A stretch of 64,000 nt of DNA from Nonomuraea roseoviolacea subsp. carminata (lineage in GTDB: Bacteria > Actinomycetota > Actinomycetes > Streptosporangiales > Streptosporangiaceae). The translations under genes and the position numbers were made by a program. Shown here piece after piece: positions 56,119 to 63,920 of this stretch. The stretch's first letter is position 1. The number at the start of each line of letters is the position of its first letter. A model generated the notes under the pieces. That model ran no database searches and had not been told where the DNA came from. It was given only the letters and a program-made list of their open reading frames with translations. The DNA is taken from positions 806,001-870,000 of the forward strand of contig NZ_JAMZEC010000001.1 of NCBI RefSeq assembly GCF_024172185.1, written 5' to 3'.

Positions 56119-58071
56119 CTAGTCCACCTCGGCGACCGCCTGGGCGAACTGGGCGGAGTACAGCCGGGCGTAGGCGCCGTCGGCCTCCAGCAGCGACTCG
56201 TGCGTGCCCTGCTCGACGATCCGCCCGTTCTCCATGACCAGGATCAGGCTGGCGTCGCGGATCGTGGACAGCCGGTGGGCGATCACGAAGCTGGTGCGGC
56301 CCTCGCGCAGCGAGCTCATCGCCCGCTGGATGAGCACCTCGGTACGGGTGTCGACCGAGCTGGTGGCCTCGTCCAGGATGAGGATCGCCGGCTCGGACAG
56401 GAACGCCCGGGCGATCGTGATGAGCTGCTTCTCGCCCGCGCTGACCGTCGCGCCCTCCTCGTCGATCATCGTGTCGTAGCCGTCGGGCAGCGTGTGCGCG
56501 ACGCGGTCCACGTGGGCGGCCCGCGCGGCGGCCTCGATCCGCTCACGCGTGGCGCCCTCCGCGCCGTAGCCGATGTTCTCCGCGATCGTGCCGCCGAACA
56601 GCCAGGCGTCCTGCAGCACCATGCCGATCTGGGCGCGCAGCTCCTCCCGGGACATCTCGGCGATGTCGACGCCGTCGAGCGTGATCCGGCCGCCGGTCAC
56701 CTCGTAGAAGCGCATGATGAGGTTGACCAGGGTGGTCTTGCCCGCGCCGGTGGGGCCGACGATGGCCACGGTCTGGCCGGGTTCGACGGTCAGCGACAGG
56801 TTCTCGATCAGCGGCCGGTCCGGCGCGTAGCGGAAGGACACGTTCTCGAACGCCACACGCCCCCTGGCCCGCTCGGGACGGGCGGGCGCGGCCGGGTCCG
56901 GCGACTGCTCCGGCGCCTCCAGCAGCTCGAAGACCCGCTCGGCCGAGGCGACGCCCGACTGCACCAGGTTCGCCATGCCGGCCACCTGGGTCAGCGGCTG
57001 GCTGAACTGCCGGGAGTACTGGATGAACGCCTGCACGTCGCCCAGCGAGATGGAGCCCGAGGCCACCTTGAGCCCGCCGACCACGGCCACCAGCACGTAG
57101 TTGACGTTGCCGATGAACATCATCGCCGGCTGGATGATCCCGGAGATGAACTGGGCGCGGAAACTGGAGGCGAACAGGGCCTCGTTGTGCCGCTCGAAGG
57201 TCTCGGCGGCCTCCTGCTGCCGGCCGAACACCTTGACCAGCGTGTGGCCGCCGTACATCTCCTCGATGTGGCCGTTGAGCTTGCCCGTCGAGGACCACTG
57301 CTTGACGAACTGCGGCTGCGAGCGCTTGCCGACCGCCGCGGTCACGTACACCGACACCGGCACCGTGACCAGCGCGATGAGCGCCAGGACCGGCGAGATC
57401 CAGAACATCATCACCAGCACCGCCACGACCGTCAGCACCGACGAGATGAGCTGGCTCATCGTCTGCTGCAGCGTCTGCGCGATGTTGTCGGTGTCGTTGG
57501 TGGCGCGGCTGAGGATCTCGCCGCGCGGCTGGCCGTCGAAGTAGCTCAGCGGCAGCCGCGCCAGCTTCTCCTCGATCAGCCGGCGCAGCCGGGACGCCGC
57601 CCGCTGCACGACGGTCGTGGTCAGCCGGAACTGGACGATCCCGAGCAGCGCCGCCAGCAGGTAGATCGCCAGCACCCAGCCCAGCACCTGGGCGAGCGCG
57701 GTGAAGTCGATGCCGTGGCCGGGCACCACGTTCATCGACGCGACCATGTCGGCGAACGTGCCCTGGCCCCGGGCGCGCAGCCCGGCCACGGCCTGGTCCT
57801 TGGTGATCCCCGCGGGCAGGCGGGCCCCGATGATGCCGGAGAAGATCAGGTCCGTGGCGTGGCCGAGGATCTTGGGGCCGGTCACGGTCAGGGCGACGCT
57901 GGTCGTCCCGAGGGCCAGGACGACGGCCAGCAGTGCGCGCTCGGGGCGCAGCAGCCGCAGCAGGCGGCGCAGGGAGCCGCCGAAGTCGAGGGCCTTCTCG
58001 GCGGGCCCGGACATCATCCGGGCCGGCCCGAAGCCGGGCTGGGGCCGGCGCGGGGGCGCCTGGTTCGTCAT
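56119..58071 (-). CDS. ABC exporter pair B, canonical-site subunit
   Basis: 650 residues from the ATG at 58071, overlapping the upstream gene by ATGA. The membrane domain carries a DNPxxF-like FYLV-type exporter architecture (LPLSYFDGQPRGEILSRATNDTDNIAQTL). Walker A is VGPTGAGKTT and Walker B is LILDEATSSVD with the catalytic Glu. The signature motif is VSAGEKQL instead of LSGGQ. Together with the partner this predicts one degenerate ATP site, as in heterodimeric drug exporters (LmrCD, BmrCD, TM287/288). Confidence 0.9.
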   Translation of the reverse strand: MTNQAPPRRPQPGFGPARMMSGPAEKALDFGGSLRRLLRLLRPERALLAVVLALGTTSVALTVTGPKILGHATDLIFSGIIGARLPAGITKDQAVAGLRARGQGTFADMVASMNVVPGHGIDFTALAQVLGWVLAIYLLAALLGIVQFRLTTTVVQRAASRLRRLIEEKLARLPLSYFDGQPRGEILSRATNDTDNIAQTLQQTMSQLISSVLTVVAVLVMMFWISPVLALIALVTVPVSVYVTAAVGKRSQPQFVKQWSSTGKLNGHIEEMYGGHTLVKVFGRQQEAAETFERHNEALFASSFRAQFISGIIQPAMMFIGNVNYVLVAVVGGLKVASGSISLGDVQAFIQYSRQFSQPLTQVAGMANLVQSGVASAERVFELLEAPEQSPDPAAPARPERARGRVAFENVSFRYAPDRPLIENLSLTVEPGQTVAIVGPTGAGKTTLVNLIMRFYEVTGGRITLDGVDIAEMSREELRAQIGMVLQDAWLFGGTIAENIGYGAEGATRERIEAAARAAHVDRVAHTLPDGYDTMIDEEGATVSAGEKQLITIARAFLSEPAILILDEATSSVDTRTEVLIQRAMSSLREGRTSFVIAHRLSTIRDASLILVMENGRIVEQGTHESLLEADGAYARLYSAQFAQAVAEVD

Positions 58072-59804
58072 GCCGCGGCCTCCTGTTCGGTGAGCTGGGA
58101 CAGCACGATCTCGCGGTACGTCGGGCAGCCGGCCATGAGCTTGGCGTGGTCGCCGCTGCCCACCACCCGGCCGTCGTCGAGCACGAGGATGCGGTCGGCG
58201 TCGCGGATCGTGTTCACCCGCTGGGCCACGATGACGATCGTGGCGTCGGTGATCTCCTCGGCCAGCGCGGCGCGCAGCCGGGCGTCGGTCGCGTAGTCGA
58301 GGGCGGAGAAGGAGTCGTCGAACAGGTAGATCTCGGGCCGGTGCACCAGGGCCCTGGCGATGGCCAGGCGCTGGCGCTGGCCGCCGGAGACGTTCGTGCC
58401 GCCCTGGGAGATCGGCTCGTCCAGGCCGCCGGGCATCGCCTCGACGAACTCCCGGGCCTGGGCCACCTCCAGGGCCCGCCACAGCTCCTCGTCGGTGGCG
58501 TCCGGCCGGCCGTACCGGAGGTTGGAGGCGACCGTGCCGGAGAACAGGTAGGGCGTCTGCGGGACCAGGCCGACCGCGCGGGAGAGCGCGGCCGGGTCGA
58601 GGTCGCGCACGTCGACCCCGTCGACCCGCACCTCGCCGGCGGTCGCGTCGAACAGGCGCGGGATGAGGTTGAGCAGCGTCGTCTTGCCGCTGCCCGTGCT
58701 GCCGATGATCGCGATGGTACGGCCCGGCCGCGCCGTGAAGCTCACGCCGCACAGCACCGGCTCCTCGGCGCCCGGGTAACGGAAGTCCACGGACCGCAGT
58801 TCCAGCTCGCCGATCCGGGTGCTCGGGGTGACGGGAGCGGCCGGCGGGGCGACGGTCGGCTCGGCGCCGAACACCTCCTCGATGCGCTCGGCGCACACCT
58901 CGGCCCGGGGGATCATCATGAACATGAACGTCGCCATCATCACCGACATGAGGATCTGCATGAGGTAGGAGATCACCGCGGTCAGCGCGCCCACCTCCAT
59001 GGTGCCGTCGGCGATGCGGTGGCCGCCGAACCACACCACGGCGACGCTGGAGACGTTCACCACCAGCATCACCGAGGGGAACATCAGCGCCATCAGCCGG
59101 CCGACCCGCAGCGACACGTCGGTCAGCCGGTCGTTGGCCACGCCGAAGCGCTCGCGCTCGTGCCGGTCGCGGACGAAGGCCCGGATGACCCGGATGCCGG
59201 TGATCTGCTCGCGCAGCACCTGGTTGATCCGGTCGATGCGCTCCTGCATCGTGCGGAAGAGCGGGCGCATCCGCATAACGATCACGCCCACCAGGACGAT
59301 CATCACGGGCAGCACGACGAGCAGCAGCGACGACAGCGCCGTGTCCTGGCGCAGCGCCAGCACGATGCCGCCGACGCACATGATCGGAGCGGCCACCATC
59401 ATCGTGAGCGTCATCAGCACGAGCAACTGGACCTGCTGCACGTCGTTGGTGGTGCGGGTGATCAGGGACGGCGCGCCGAACCGGTTGACCTCCTGGGCGG
59501 AGAATTCCTGCACCCGGTGGAAGATCGCGGCCCGCAGGTCCCTGCCGAGGGCCATCGAGGTGCGCGCGCCGTAGTACACGGCCACGATCGAGCAGACGAT
59601 CTGGACGAGCGTCACCCCGAGCATCACCAGCCCGACGCGGGCGATGTAGCCGGTGTCGCCCTTGATGACGCCGTCGTCGATGATGTCGGCGTTCAGGGTG
59701 GGGAGGTAGAGCGTGGCCAGCGTCTGCACGAACTGGAAGAGGACCACGAGCGTGATCTCCTTCCCGTACGGCCTGAGCCGGGCCCGCAGGAGCCGCAGCA
59801 GCAT
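58068..59804 (-). CDS. ABC exporter pair B, degenerate-site subunit
   Basis: 578 residues. The ATG at 59804 overlaps the TetR stop (TGATG); the GTG just before it is less likely. Walker A is IGSTGSGKTT and the signature is VSGGQRQR. The Walker B end reads IYLFDDSFSALD, with Asp in place of the catalytic Glu. This is the classic non-catalytic subunit of heterodimeric ABC exporters. It forms an operon with the upstream TetR regulator and the downstream partner. Confidence 0.91.
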   Translation of the reverse strand: MLLRLLRARLRPYGKEITLVVLFQFVQTLATLYLPTLNADIIDDGVIKGDTGYIARVGLVMLGVTLVQIVCSIVAVYYGARTSMALGRDLRAAIFHRVQEFSAQEVNRFGAPSLITRTTNDVQQVQLLVLMTLTMMVAAPIMCVGGIVLALRQDTALSSLLLVVLPVMIVLVGVIVMRMRPLFRTMQERIDRINQVLREQITGIRVIRAFVRDRHERERFGVANDRLTDVSLRVGRLMALMFPSVMLVVNVSSVAVVWFGGHRIADGTMEVGALTAVISYLMQILMSVMMATFMFMMIPRAEVCAERIEEVFGAEPTVAPPAAPVTPSTRIGELELRSVDFRYPGAEEPVLCGVSFTARPGRTIAIIGSTGSGKTTLLNLIPRLFDATAGEVRVDGVDVRDLDPAALSRAVGLVPQTPYLFSGTVASNLRYGRPDATDEELWRALEVAQAREFVEAMPGGLDEPISQGGTNVSGGQRQRLAIARALVHRPEIYLFDDSFSALDYATDARLRAALAEEITDATIVIVAQRVNTIRDADRILVLDDGRVVGSGDHAKLMAGCPTYREIVLSQLTEQEAAA

Positions 59805-60436
59805 CACGGGGCGCTTTCTGTGGAGGGATCCGGGGGTGGGGAGGGCCGTACGAGCAGCCCGTCGAGCAGCACGGAGACGATCTCGTCGTCGTCCATGTCG
59901 TTGAACTCGTCGCCGTGGCCGAAGCCACCGCGGAACACACTCACCGTGGTCAGCATCATCAGCAGTTGCGCCGTGGCCTCAGGGGAACGGCGCAGCCGGT
60001 CGCGGTCGGGTTCGATGATGGCGGCGAGCGCGCTCTGGATCCGGCCCCGCCTCTCGCCCATCCGCTCCAGGAACTCCGCGTCGTCGGCCATCAGCTCTCT
60101 GGGTGTGGTCATGAGCTTGGCGTTGGCCATCATCCCCGCCCGCATCGTCCTGACCACCTGACGAAGCCGGGCGCGCAGTTCGAGCCGCGTGCCGACGGCC
60201 GTGATCGCGTCCACCGCCGGTTGCGGGTCGAACGCGCTCATCACCGCCGCGCGCAGCAGCGAGACCTTGTCGGGGAAGACGCCGAAGATCGTGCCCTCGG
60301 CCACGCCCGCGGCCTCGGCGATCTGGCGGGTGGAGACCGCGGTGCCGTGCTCGCGCAGCAGCGGGATCGTGGCGGCGATCAGCGCGGCGCGGCGGTCCTC
60401 GGGCGCCATCGCGGGCACCCTTCGCCTCTTGGTCAT
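59804..60436 (-). CDS. TetR-family regulator of exporter pair B
   Basis: 210 residues. Helix-turn-helix: ALIAATIPLLREHGTAVSTRQIAEAAGVAEGTIFGVFPDKVSLLRAAV. The C-terminal ligand domain is less conserved and contains MMANAKLMTTPRELMADDAEFLERM. It is the first gene of the exporter operon and has a strong palindrome just upstream, so it probably represses its own operon until a drug-like ligand binds. Confidence 0.92.
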   Translation of the reverse strand: MTKRRRVPAMAPEDRRAALIAATIPLLREHGTAVSTRQIAEAAGVAEGTIFGVFPDKVSLLRAAVMSAFDPQPAVDAITAVGTRLELRARLRQVVRTMRAGMMANAKLMTTPRELMADDAEFLERMGERRGRIQSALAAIIEPDRDRLRRSPEATAQLLMMLTTVSVFRGGFGHGDEFNDMDDDEIVSVLLDGLLVRPSPPPDPSTESAP

Positions 60437-60782: not shown

Positions 60783-61697
60783 TCAGGCCGCGACGAGTCC
60801 GGCCGAGGCCAGGACGCGCAGATGTTCCAGCAGGCCCCGGGGGGTGTCGGCGAGCGGCTGGACGCAGACGTGGTCCGCTCCTGCGTCGAGGTGCTCCCGT
60901 ACGCGCCCGATCACGGTGTCCGGCTCGCCCCACACCACGATGGCGTCGACCAGCGCGTCGCTGCCGCCGCCGGACACGTCCTCCTCGGACCAGCCCAGGT
61001 CGCGCAGGTTGTTGGCGTAGTTCGGCAGGCCCAGGTAGAGCGCCATGAACCGGCGGGCGATCCCCCGCGCCCGCTCCGGGTCCGTGTCGAGCACCACGGT
61101 CTGCTCCGGCGCCAGCACCGGGCCCGCGCCGAGGACCTCGCGGGCGCGGGCGGTGTGGTCGGGGGTGACGAAGTAGGGATGCGCGCCCTGGGCGCGCCGG
61201 GCGGCGAGCTCCAGCATCCTGGGCCGGAGCGCGGCCAGCAGCCGCGGCGGCGGTTCCGGCAGCGGGCCGCCGTACTCCGCGGCGTCCATGGCGTCGAGGT
61301 AGGCGTTCATCGCCGCGAACGGCCTGCGGTAGTCGTGGCCTCTCGCCGACACCGTGGGCGCGTGGCTGACCCCCAGACCGAGCACGAACCGTCCGCCGGA
61401 CGCCTCCGCGAGGGTGTTCGCGCCGTTGGCGGTCGCGACGGCGTCGCGGGCCCAGATGTTGGCGATCCCGGTGGCGACCGTCAGCCGATGCGTCGCGCCG
61501 AGCAGGATGGACGCGTGGGTCAGCACCTCCTTGCCGGTCGGGGTCTCCCCGATCCAGAGCGCACCGTAGCCCAGGCTCTCGATGTGGGCGGCCACCTCGC
61601 GCCCCACCGAGGCGGCTTGCCCGCTCAGCGTGCTGTTCCAGACCCCTACGCGTCCCAGGCGCCGCTTCAACGCCTCGGCCTCGCCCGCATCCGTCAT
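60783..61697 (-). CDS. LLM-class F420-dependent oxidoreductase (TIGR03620-like)
   Basis: 304 residues from the ATG at 61697, with GGAGG five bases ahead; the preceding GTG is too close. Luciferase-like TIM-barrel features: GRVGVWNSTLSGQAASVGREVAAHIESLGYGALWIGE, TVATGIANIWARDAVATANGANTLAEASGGRFVLGLGVSH and VWGEPDTVIGRVREHLDAGADHVCVQ. It should use reduced F420 or FMN. It is divergent from the P450/peptide genes across about 170 bases; a link is possible but not shown. Confidence 0.9.
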   Translation of the reverse strand: MTDAGEAEALKRRLGRVGVWNSTLSGQAASVGREVAAHIESLGYGALWIGETPTGKEVLTHASILLGATHRLTVATGIANIWARDAVATANGANTLAEASGGRFVLGLGVSHAPTVSARGHDYRRPFAAMNAYLDAMDAAEYGGPLPEPPPRLLAALRPRMLELAARRAQGAHPYFVTPDHTARAREVLGAGPVLAPEQTVVLDTDPERARGIARRFMALYLGLPNYANNLRDLGWSEEDVSGGGSDALVDAIVVWGEPDTVIGRVREHLDAGADHVCVQPLADTPRGLLEHLRVLASAGLVAA

Positions 61698-61867
61698 CAC
61701 GTCCTCCGCCGGCCTGTCACCGTGGGCCGCCTCCGGCCCGCCCCGGTCTCACGATAGGCAGCGGGACGTCTTCGCAGGTCAACGGCCGATTCATGACTTG
61801 CCGCGTTCTCTCCTGACGGGGTGCGCCCGGTCCGGGGATCTCAGGCATTGACCGGGAGAAAAACGTG

Positions 61868-62020
61868 ATGGATAGTCACGTTGTCCTTTCGACCAGCAAG
61901 GCCAGCGAGGATGGTGAGGGAGTCGTGCGACTGTTGCGTCACGTTGCCGCCCGTCTTGTCGGCAAGGTCCGCGTCAGCGGCAAGTACCCGTACTGGCCGT
62001 ACCACGGCGGCGGCAAGTAA
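61868..62020 (+). CDS. Putative RiPP precursor peptide (50 aa, aromatic C-terminal core)
   Basis: Starting at the ATG at 61868 (GGGAG nine bases upstream; a GTG at 61865 is an alternative) there are 50 codons and a TAA at 62018. The first 37 or so residues look like a leader: an acidic stretch (SKASEDGEG) and an amphipathic helix (VVRLLRHVAARLVGKVRV). The C-terminus is KYPYWPYHGGGK, with Tyr40, Tyr42, Trp43, Tyr45 and His46 in seven residues. A cytochrome P450 gene begins 14 bases later. Short peptide plus P450 is the layout of biarylitides and tryptorubin-type atropopeptides, in which the P450 crosslinks Tyr, Trp and His side chains. No homologue was looked up, so the assignment rests on context. 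Confidence 0.72.
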   Translation: MDSHVVLSTSKASEDGEGVVRLLRHVAARLVGKVRVSGKYPYWPYHGGGK

Positions 62021-62034
62021 GCAGCACCCGCCGG

Positions 62035-63393
62035 TTGGACCCGGCACGCCCGCCGGGGCCTCGCGGCCACTGGCTGATGGGCAACGCCGCCGCGTACGAG
62101 AAGGACCGCGCCGGCTTCCTGCGCCGTCATCACCGTGACTACGGCGACGTGTTCTCCTTCGACGAGCGGATCGTCTTCACCGTTGATCCGCGACTCGCCC
62201 ACCAGGTCCTGACCGCCACCAACCGGGACTACGTCACGGAGCCGGCGCCGTTCGCCGGGTCGTCTGCTCCGGGCGACGCGGGTGAGGCGGCCCGCCCGTG
62301 GATGCGGGCGCGCCGCGTGCTGCGTCCCGCCGTGGCCGACGCCGCGCCGATGGTCACGGGCATGGACGGGCGGTTCGTCGCGATCCTGGACGACGTGCTG
62401 GACCGGACGGCGGGCCGCGAGGCCGAGGTGCTGCCGCTGATGCTCGACGTCGCCGGGCGGGCCGTGGCCGAGCTGTGCCTCGGCGAGGACGCGGCGGGCG
62501 TCCCGGACCTGCTGGCGGCCGTCAACGCGGCGCTGCTGCCGTTCGAGGACGCGGGCTACCAGCTTCCCGCGTGGATCCCGTCGCCGCGCAACCGCCGGTT
62601 CTTCCGCGTCCATCGCCGTACGTCCGAGACCCTGACCGGGCTGGTGCGCGCGCGACGACGCGCCGGGGCCGCCCTCACGCCGCCCCGGGACCTGCTGGAC
62701 GTCCTGCTCGCGGCGGGTCCGGCGATGAGCGACGGGGCGGTGACGTCCGCGCTGTGGACCGTGCTGATCGGCGGGCACGGGGTGCCCGCGGCGGCGCTGA
62801 CCTCCGTGGTCCGCGAGCTCGCGATGCGCCCCGACCTGACCGCCGCCCTCGCGCACGAAGCCGCCCGACTGGACGAAGCCGAGCGGCCGGGCGGAGGCGA
62901 GCGGCCGGGCGGAGGCGGGCGGCCGGGGCCGGGCAGGGGAACAGACGGGGCGGGGTGTCCGCGGGCGCGGCTGCCGCTGGCCGAGGCGGTCGTCCATGAG
63001 GTCCTGCGGCTGTGCCCGCCCGCGTGGACGATGACGCGGGTCGCGTGCGCCGCCGTCGACTTCGGCCGGTGGCGGTTGCGTCCGGGGGACGAGGTGCTGT
63101 CCATCCCGTACCTGATCCACCGCGACCCGCGCTGGTGGCCCGACCCGGACGTCTTCGACCCGTCCCGGTGGCCCGCCGTGCGGCCCGCGCCCGGCACGTA
63201 CCTGCCGTTCGGCTCCGGCCCCCGGCGCTGCCTGGGCGCGGCGGCGGCGCTGCGCCAGCTCACCCTCGCGGCGTCCCACATCGCCCGGCGCTTCCACGTA
63301 CGCGCGCCGGACGCGGCCGCCGCGGAGCCCGCGTTCTGCGGCCGCCTCGCGCCGGCGGGCCTGCGTGCGGCGTTCCACCCCGTCGAGCCCTGA
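62035..63393 (+). CDS. Cytochrome P450, candidate crosslinking enzyme for the adjacent peptide
   Basis: 452 residues from a TTG at 62035. The heme-binding loop is FGSGPRRCLG (Cys ligand), the ExxR pair is in VVHEVLRL, and PWMRARRVLRP is the C-helix. The I-helix reads VLIGGHGVPAAALTS: the usual acid and threonine (AGxE/D-T) are missing, which suits a P450 that couples aromatic rings rather than inserting oxygen. A Gly/Arg/Pro-rich insert (ERPGGG repeated, about residues 280-305) precedes the K-helix. It needs ferredoxin and reductase supplied elsewhere. It is convergent with the MarR gene. Confidence 0.92.
   Translation: MDPARPPGPRGHWLMGNAAAYEKDRAGFLRRHHRDYGDVFSFDERIVFTVDPRLAHQVLTATNRDYVTEPAPFAGSSAPGDAGEAARPWMRARRVLRPAVADAAPMVTGMDGRFVAILDDVLDRTAGREAEVLPLMLDVAGRAVAELCLGEDAAGVPDLLAAVNAALLPFEDAGYQLPAWIPSPRNRRFFRVHRRTSETLTGLVRARRRAGAALTPPRDLLDVLLAAGPAMSDGAVTSALWTVLIGGHGVPAAALTSVVRELAMRPDLTAALAHEAARLDEAERPGGGERPGGGGRPGPGRGTDGAGCPRARLPLAEAVVHEVLRLCPPAWTMTRVACAAVDFGRWRLRPGDEVLSIPYLIHRDPRWWPDPDVFDPSRWPAVRPAPGTYLPFGSGPRRCLGAAAALRQLTLAASHIARRFHVRAPDAAAAEPAFCGRLAPAGLRAAFHPVEP
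62880..62935. repeat. Low-complexity repeat within the P450 gene
   Basis: The unit GAGCGGCCGGGCGGAGGC is present twice, followed by a diverged copy (GGGCGGCCGGGGCC). It encodes ERPGGGERPGGGGRPG, in frame, between the I-helix region and the K-helix. This insertion is not part of the P450 fold. Confidence 0.75.
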
Positions 63394-63468
63394 TCACAGG
63401 CGCCCGACGAGCCTCTTGAGCGGACGGACCCCGTAAGCGGGCGGGCCTCATGAACGGGCGCCTCGTGA
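63394..63468. terminator. Long-range hairpin between P450 and marR
   Basis: AGGCGCCCG at 63398 pairs with CGGGCGCCT at 63455, and flanking TCAC/GTGA lengthen the stem with one bulged base. It lies between convergent genes. The 48-base loop is long, so it is only a tentative terminator. Confidence 0.4.
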
Positions 63469-63479
63469 GAGGCGGGAGG

Positions 63480-63920
63480 TCAGTCGGCGGGGAGGCCGGT
63501 GCGGCGGGCGAGCGTGCTCAGAGTGACGCGCAGCGTCTCCGCCCCCTCCTGGTCGAGCCCCTCCAAGAGCTCCGCGTCGAGCTCGGCCGCCGCCCGCGCG
63601 CACTCGGCCAGCAGGTCGCGCCCCTCGGCCGTCAGCGTGAGGATCTGCCGGCGCCGGTCGGACGGGTCGCGCTCGCGCCGCACCGCCCCCAGCTCCTCCA
63701 GCCGGTCGGCGAGCGAGACCACCAGACTGGGCGCCACGCTCATGATCTTGGCGACGTCGAGCTGGGAGGCCGCCACCCCGGAGTCGAGCACCGCCAGCAG
63801 TCCCACGTGCTTGGGCTTGAGGTCGTGGGCCGCCAGGCGCGCCGTGAACCGGTCGGTCAGCACGGCCCCGAGCGTGCCGAGCCGGAAGGTGAGCGTCGAG
63901 GTGAGCTTGACGGCGTTCAT
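63480..63920 (-). CDS. MarR-family transcriptional regulator
   Basis: 146 residues with the winged helix of MarR: HDLKPKHVGLLAVLDSGVAASQLDVAKIMSVAPSLVVSLADRLEELGAVRRERDPSDRRRQILTLT. The start is the ATG at 63920. A strong palindrome lies between it and a divergent gene that runs off the window, which is the usual autoregulated arrangement. Its convergent orientation to the P450 gives no evidence that it controls the peptide locus. Confidence 0.92.
   Translation of the reverse strand: MNAVKLTSTLTFRLGTLGAVLTDRFTARLAAHDLKPKHVGLLAVLDSGVAASQLDVAKIMSVAPSLVVSLADRLEELGAVRRERDPSDRRRQILTLTAEGRDLLAECARAAAELDAELLEGLDQEGAETLRVTLSTLARRTGLPAD

Follow-up and report, generated by a model that had tools for sequence, protein, structure and literature searches.

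A short Tyr-x-Tyr-Trp peptide and its adjacent cytochrome P450 in Nonomuraea roseoviolacea: a recurring pair that most likely constitutes a locus for a cross-linked ribosomal peptide

The window analyzed here is a stretch of 64,000 nucleotides from Nonomuraea roseoviolacea subsp. carminata, corresponding to positions 806001-870000 of contig 1 of a genome of 9.75 Mb in three contigs. Its plus strand carries, close to the end, a promoter, a small gene for a peptide of most likely 31 residues (MRLLRHVAARLVGKVRVSGKYPYWPYHGGGK; GTG start, 61925-62020), and the gene of a cytochrome P450 of 452 residues (TTG start, 62035-63393; PF00067, E 8.5e-44), the proposed cross-linking enzyme. The peptide frame, ending KYPYWPYHGGGK, stops at 62020 and is separated from the P450 gene by 14 nt, exactly as claimed in an earlier, sequence-only reading of this DNA. 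The start of the P450 is conserved in position among 8 close loci (TTG in 7, GTG in 1). Two genes on the opposite strand frame the pair, one for a luciferase-like oxidoreductase of the F420 type (60783-61700; TIGR03620) and one for a MarR-type regulator (63480-63920; domain and NCBIfam match). The minus strand also encodes nearby, at 58068-60436, a regulator of the TetR type and a protein resembling ABC exporters. A plasmid search gave three matches, the best with an E value of 1, and PADLOC gave no match.

A consensus scan of 61700-63600 revealed a single promoter-like site (61848-61876; 9 of 12 matches, with 0.0 expected from shuffled sequences), made of a -35 hexamer TTGACC (61848-61853), a 17-nt spacer, and a -10 hexamer GATAGT (61871-61876). 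The pattern TTGACC-17-[GC]ATAGT recurred in all 8 close loci (seven from Nonomuraea and one from Bailinhaonella), which were aligned over the 240 nt located 5' of the P450 start and its first 33 nt. The sequence-only reading had proposed a gene of 50 residues with its own ribosome-binding site, starting with the ATG at 61868. This ATG sits in the spacer of the conserved promoter, so that its ribosome-binding site would fall inside the promoter. At the equivalent position, ATG was found in 3 of the 8 close loci, and ATT, AGC, or ATC in the other 5. Furthermore, 5 of the 8 loci lack 8 or 11 nt between promoter and peptide, so that the 50-residue frame is lost in them (it is kept in 3); the -10 hexamer is 48 nt from the start codon in the window and L029, 57 nt in L030, 40 nt in L031-L033, and 37 nt in L034 and L045. 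By contrast, all 8 loci have a start codon at the place of 61925, namely ATG in Bailinhaonella and GTG in the other 7. It follows a conserved GAGGAxGGTGAG (GAGGATGGTGAG in the window, 61907-61918), to which the ribosome-binding role can be assigned. We therefore rejected the start at 61868, by comparison only, because of its overlap with the promoter and the loss of its frame in 5 of 8 loci. GTG 61925 is most likely the start of the precursor, which then comprises 31 residues. This is judged from the comparison with the five loci outside the three closest ones (the window, L029, and L030), since the latter retain both the ATG and an uninterrupted longer frame, with 9 nt inserted in L030. Although 24 of the 38 peptide-bearing loci described below offer more than one in-frame start, in all 32 loci of the window's type, other genera included, the equivalent start makes the first Tyr of the core residue 21 or 22.

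Relatives of the pair were gathered by their P450 from named contigs, 54 Nonomuraea genomes, 345 genomes of the order, and 323 genomes of one genus (taken to be Streptomyces), the searches of the order and of the genus, with 5 candidates scored per genome, providing lower bounds. P450s at least 35% identical to the window's were counted as the family, which amounted to 39 loci once duplicates had been removed (L041-L044, L060, and L064, from the same contigs, and L159-L163, with the same upstream regions as L045, L067, L047, L054, and L055). A homologous peptide was found upstream of the P450 in 38 of these 39 loci, with a Tyr-x-Tyr-Trp (YxYW) core in 32 and a Tyr-x-Trp (YxW) core in 6; in the remaining one, L066 of Rhodococcus rhodnii, no upstream peptide of this kind was found. 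The pairing thus recurs, in line with the check proposed in the sequence-only reading. It occurs in Nonomuraea, Bailinhaonella, Streptomyces, Micromonosporaceae, Pseudonocardiaceae, and Luteipulveratus; 10 of the 54 Nonomuraea genomes (the window's included) have the YxYW type and three more the YxW type. The distance from the end of the peptide to the P450 was 12-114 nt in the 32 YxYW loci, 12-119 nt over all 38, and 12-18 nt in the 10 YxYW loci of Nonomuraea.

Further evidence was obtained with a sequence profile built from five Nonomuraea peptides. Among 92 loci, it recovered 25 held-out ones (23 distinct), all of the YxYW type, with E values of 2.8e-5 or lower, i.e. 23 of 23 distinct non-seed YxYW loci. 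This is a fair test, whereas an earlier seed profile mostly matched its own seeds. For the 56 remaining loci the five-peptide profile gave no match at E ≤ 1, and the YxW loci among the 92 were missed. No profile match at E ≤ 1 was obtained in L071 and L073-L120, of which L073-L077 were also inspected by eye. In a search of the phylum with the P450 profile, in which 4 candidates were scored in each of 396 genomes, at least one genome, that of the window, was recovered; a search of the class with the peptide profile, with 20 candidates scored in each of 394 genomes, likewise recovered at least one. The pair recurs beyond chance.

We also compared the surroundings of 30 loci (flanks of up to 6 kb, simple ORF calling) and found no third gene common to the loci in general. 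The commonest neighbor family was present in 7 of the 30, with the same position in four of these, which belong to one branch; one cluster of 5 loci was the P450 itself, and the remaining families occurred in 3 or 4 loci. The unit is therefore the peptide-P450 pair. As no exporter family recurred in more than a few of these 30 loci, an export role for the ABC-type neighbor is without support. In the WNFF/WNIF branch (L035, L036, L037, and L067, from two genera), a long ORF downstream of the P450 gene, on the other strand, ends near the end of this gene in 4 of 4 loci; it is possibly a third gene of that branch.

The window's peptide can be divided into a leader part (residues 1-20, 61925-61984, the end being predicted) and a core part, YPYWPYHGGGK (residues 21-31, 61985-62017). 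In 27 distinct YxYW peptides, Tyr1, Tyr3, and Trp4 of the core (Tyr21, Tyr23, and Trp24 in the window) were invariant, together with two leader glycines, the invariance of the three aromatic residues being partly circular since the loci were gathered and sorted by the YxYW motif. The conserved leader residues are R5, R10, L11, G13, R16, and G19, and the most strongly kept positions besides the glycines were Arg -16 (26 of 27), Leu -10 (24), and Arg -5 (24). The C-terminal aromatic residues had been expected to be conserved more strictly than the leader, and the two Tyr and the Trp do outdo most leader positions, with the same partial circularity. When YxW and YxYW peptides were considered together, Tyr1 and the Trp were the sole core residues kept in 38 of 38, and Tyr3 was found in 32, counts that are again partly circular because the motif had served to gather the peptides. 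Core position 6 (Tyr26 in the window) was occupied by Tyr in 22 and His in 1 of the 23 members of the window's clade (see below). The weight that had been placed on the histidine (His46 in the numbering of the 50-residue frame) and on the GGGK tail was misplaced: His at core position 7 was found in 11 of 26 peptides, and the residues beyond this position vary (GGE, HGK, YDK, QLR, YPE, and others), the core of Nonomuraea montanisoli and N. rhodomycinica being YPYWPYHGGE.

The peptide frame had been predicted to be conserved in close relatives, and this proved correct for the frame of 31 residues. Over residues 2-27, the pN/pS ratio was 0.23 in this frame, as compared with 1.42 and 2.17 in the two other frames, and 229 of 407 differences fell at third positions (28 pairs from the 8 close loci). 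This stretch, leader included, is under selection at the amino acid level. Genes of this kind are easily missed: in the window, the peptide gene starts with GTG and the P450 gene with TTG, and a search with five representative peptides gave no NCBIfam match.

The AlphaFold2 model of the P450 displayed a full P450 fold, with a pLDDT of 89.3 when 54 sequences were used (57.9 with 10). In the 54-row alignment, which leaves out L059, L055, and L172, Cys399 (codon at 63229-63231), the predicted heme ligand in FGSGPRRCLG, was invariant. All 39 family members have the ExxR motif, and 38 have the heme motif, the exception being L059 (Streptomyces sp. P3), still counted among the 39, in which the frame is lost ahead of this motif. 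In L055 (Streptomyces griseoruber), the P450 frame extends to 639 residues, which may reflect a fusion or a missing stop. The I-helix of the window's P450 contains GGHGVP (residues 246-251, 62770-62787) in the place of the HETT seen in 6 of 11 control P450s. All 39 family members have [HYLF]-G-[VI]-P at this place and are devoid of the acid-alcohol pair. The acid and the alcohol of the I-helix are used in ordinary O2 activation by P450s, and their loss may suit a one-electron aryl coupling. The loss of HETT is not unique to the family, since the other 5 control P450s depart from HETT too; among the controls outside the family, L157, L070, and L167 lack HETT and carry a Pro in the same stretch. 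The two residues that precede the [HYLF]-G-[VI]-P motif are Gly-Gly in the 23 rows of the window's clade and Ala-Ala, Ala-Ser, or Ala-Gly in the other 16, so that Gly-Gly is seen where core position 6 is Tyr or His. We regard this match as a lead rather than a test, because each of the two changes may be a single event. In the biarylitide enzyme P450Blt, the I-helix residues A231, H234, and E238 are named as specificity controls (PMC10929621). The nearest solved structures among the matches listed in sequence and fold searches of the PDB were general P450s (CYP184A1, CYP170A1, CYP120A1, and BM3), and no RiPP cross-linker was singled out among them.

In a tree of 50 P450s, the 32 YxYW rows grouped together (support 99/97). 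They comprised the window's clade of 23 rows, with W-x-Y in the core (100/100), and a clade of 8 rows (99/96) with N-F, N-I, I-I, D-I, or A-F after the Trp (as in the sister core YTYWNFFN), beside which L062 was placed (94/85). Five of the six YxW rows also grouped together (94/97), in an unresolved fork outside YxYW, where several outer rows are on long branches and their placement is unsure. The core class follows the P450 clade.

Nam et al. (2023) reportedly defined a superfamily of cyptides, whose groups have distinct aromatic patterns. The name has been proposed for P450-linked RiPPs (PMC11450843, PMC12299652, PMC12352619), and 19 novel gene clusters are mentioned in this context (PMC12299652). 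Like cyptides, the present pair combines a short precursor with one adjacent P450, C-terminal aromatic residues, and a minimal locus. By these features it fits this superfamily, as a putative branch with the core YxYW and the leader RLxG[RK]xRxxG. To call it a new RiPP family, as in the sequence-only reading, was thus an overstatement. We found no description of the YxYW branch in the titles and opening lines of abstracts listed in searches of open papers, nor, by title, a paper on such a peptide among the 20 listed of 300 matches to a motif search, which says little as the key cyptide-group papers were not covered.

A Tyr-x-Trp core is absent from the window's peptide (Y-P-Y-W) and present in relatives such as L065 (RYPWIP), whose P450s are 35-41% identical to the window's. 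According to the title of a 2025 paper, the enzyme MpoB is said to act on a YPW motif. P450-cross-linked RiPPs with YPW, YxW, and WxxW cores have been described (PMC11002830, PMC12299652). Pseudosporamide is N-acetyl-Tyr-Pro-Trp with a biaryl bond (PMC7277628), micitide has a Tyr-Trp C-C link, and in lapparbin the enzyme SlpB joins C6 of Tyr to N1 of Trp (PMC13250620, PMC13383641, PMC11002830, PMC12299652). The present peptides share with micitide 982 and pseudosporamide a Tyr followed by a Trp; unlike these, the window's core is YxYW(P)Y, YxW being found in its relatives only. Lapparbin is likewise a cyptide with linked Tyr and Trp. Judged by their cores, L065 and L063 (RYIWIP) look like the Tyr-x-Trp kind of product.

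Further known groups were considered for the pair, and membership in the atropopeptides and the biarylitides was rejected. Like the atropopeptides (tryptorubin, scabrirubin; bitryptides), it consists of two genes, one for a short precursor and one for a P450. The definition of atropopeptides combines a specific P450, a leader motif of the KSLK type, and a Trp at core position 2 (PMC11450843). None of the six published variants of the KSLK motif was found in the 38 loci, whereas 19 of 19 loci with a tryptorubin-like core, recovered as a positive control from 323 genomes of one genus (taken to be Streptomyces), contained KSLK. The P450s of these control loci matched the window's at only 47-76 bits, as compared with 110-120 bits for the non-family L074, L077, and L158. 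Counted from the conserved Tyr as a presumed first residue of the core, the window's Trp occupies position 4, so that its agreement with position 2 depends on where the leader is cleaved. As in biarylitides, a P450 is proposed to link aromatic residues; unlike them, the precursor has 31 residues, biarylitides being derived from a pentapeptide precursor (PMC13417212). The difference from both groups, claimed beforehand, is thus borne out by precursor length, leader motif, and P450 bit scores. Finally, the best NCBIfam match of the P450 was ApyO of the aminopyruvatide pathway (NF050147), with 128 bits, far below the cut-off of 525. ApyO links Tyr-x-Tyr (PMC13192836).

Aromatic-tailed peptides were also seen outside the main group. 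L154, L155, and L156 (Nonomuraea G011, G021, and G037) are YxW relatives with the leader GKMGGRY and the cores YHWATPTG, YHWAW, and YWWFH; only two residues follow the core Trp in L155 and L156. Beyond the 39 loci, with P450s less than 35% identical to the window's, other such peptides were found upstream in L157, L166-L173, and L175, and none was discerned upstream of the P450s of L070, L158, and L174. L168-L172 (taken to be Streptomyces) have, ahead of a P450 (31-34% identity), a precursor of about 70 residues whose N-terminus is hydrophobic and resembles a signal peptide and whose end is rich in Tyr (AYGYYYVQGR, AYYYYYVQAR); this is possibly another family of P450-modified peptides, with an unusual leader. 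In L157 (Nonomuraea G034), a basic peptide of 23 residues ending in RPYPTWT, with a possible Tyr-x-x-Trp core, lies 91 to 22 nt before the P450 (31% identity). L167, L166, and L175 (taken to be Streptomyces) have short peptides with aromatic ends (GTYLYPYPT, VAGFYKY, SGRYEMYIWAL) before related P450s.

The precursor-P450 pair is real, under selection, and recurrent, and it most likely forms a locus for a cross-linked RiPP. We consider it probable that this is a minimal locus in which a single P450 makes one or more aryl cross-links within Tyr-x-Tyr-Trp(-x-Tyr), the chemistry being inferred. The idea of a minimal P450-only RiPP, already present in the sequence-only reading, holds with respect to the recurrence of the pairing, the selection on the frame, and the two-gene unit, but not with respect to the start and length of the peptide, its ribosome-binding site, or its status as a new family. 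The promoter would direct the synthesis of an mRNA with a short 5' stretch, encoding the 31-residue precursor from GTG 61925 and, 14 nt further, the P450. We infer that the P450 acts on the peptide by recognizing its basic leader (R-x-x-R-H-x-x-A-R-L-x-G-[RK]-x-R-x-x-G). The aromatic C-terminus would thereby enter the heme pocket of the enzyme, which would couple side chains oxidatively with the loss of 2 H per ring. Because of the register with the YxW-core relatives, the primary cross-link would be expected at core positions 1 and 3 (Tyr21-Tyr23), with Trp24 as an alternative or additional partner. A host protease would then cut off the leader.

The residues joined may be different ones. A single ring between Tyr21 and Trp24 (i, i+3), with Tyr23 as a bystander, would equal the Tyr-Trp ring of the YxW relatives with one residue inserted, and it would account for the fact that Tyr1 and the Trp alone are kept in all 38 peptides. 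Tyr23 is nevertheless also invariant in the 32-row YxYW branch, and the spacing that is conserved is that from the leader to position 3, two observations that are partly circular; we hold this ring to be quite possible, though not our preferred one. A modification other than ring formation, i.e. hydroxylation, dehydrogenation, or nitration, has precedents, since the RiPP P450 RufO nitrates Tyr (PMC12186263) and SroB also hydroxylates Trp (PMC11002830), but it is improbable in view of the conservation together of two or three spaced aromatic residues and of the absence, in 39 of 39 P450s, of the acid-alcohol pair of ordinary O2 activation. Still less probable is that the peptide is no substrate but a Tyr- and Trp-rich regulatory leader controlling the P450 by attenuation or coupling, as its place between promoter and P450, the 12-18 nt gap in the 10 YxYW Nonomuraea loci, and the Tyr and Trp codons near its end might suggest. 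Against this reading, residues 2-27 are under selection together with the leader part they include, the scan of 61700-63600 revealed no terminator-like site, the gap varies between 12 and 119 nt among the 38 loci, and the core class follows the P450 clade.

With the P450 as a cross-linking enzyme, a second link, Trp24-x-Tyr26, may be formed in the window's clade. A bicyclic product made by one P450 throughout this 23-row clade, with successive i, i+2 rings Tyr1-x-Tyr3 and Trp4-x-Tyr6, is a rather doubtful proposal. The Gly-Gly of the I-helix could open the pocket. The W-x-Tyr ring cannot be universal, since the core of L165 (YIYWYHAR) has no residue between the Trp and the following Tyr. If the bicyclic reading is true, a single ring would be expected in the sister clade, whose position 6 is Phe or Ile.

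There is a demand for P450 macrocyclases of short ribosomal peptides, both as biocatalysts and as sources of rigid cyclic peptides. Within a class of ribosomal peptides that was described only recently, the pair looks like an uncharacterized branch, in which a related leader is retained while the core shifts between YxW, YxYW, and YxYWxY along the P450 tree, with matching differences in the I-helix. This natural series makes the choice of aromatic residues by the P450, and the number of rings, directly testable.
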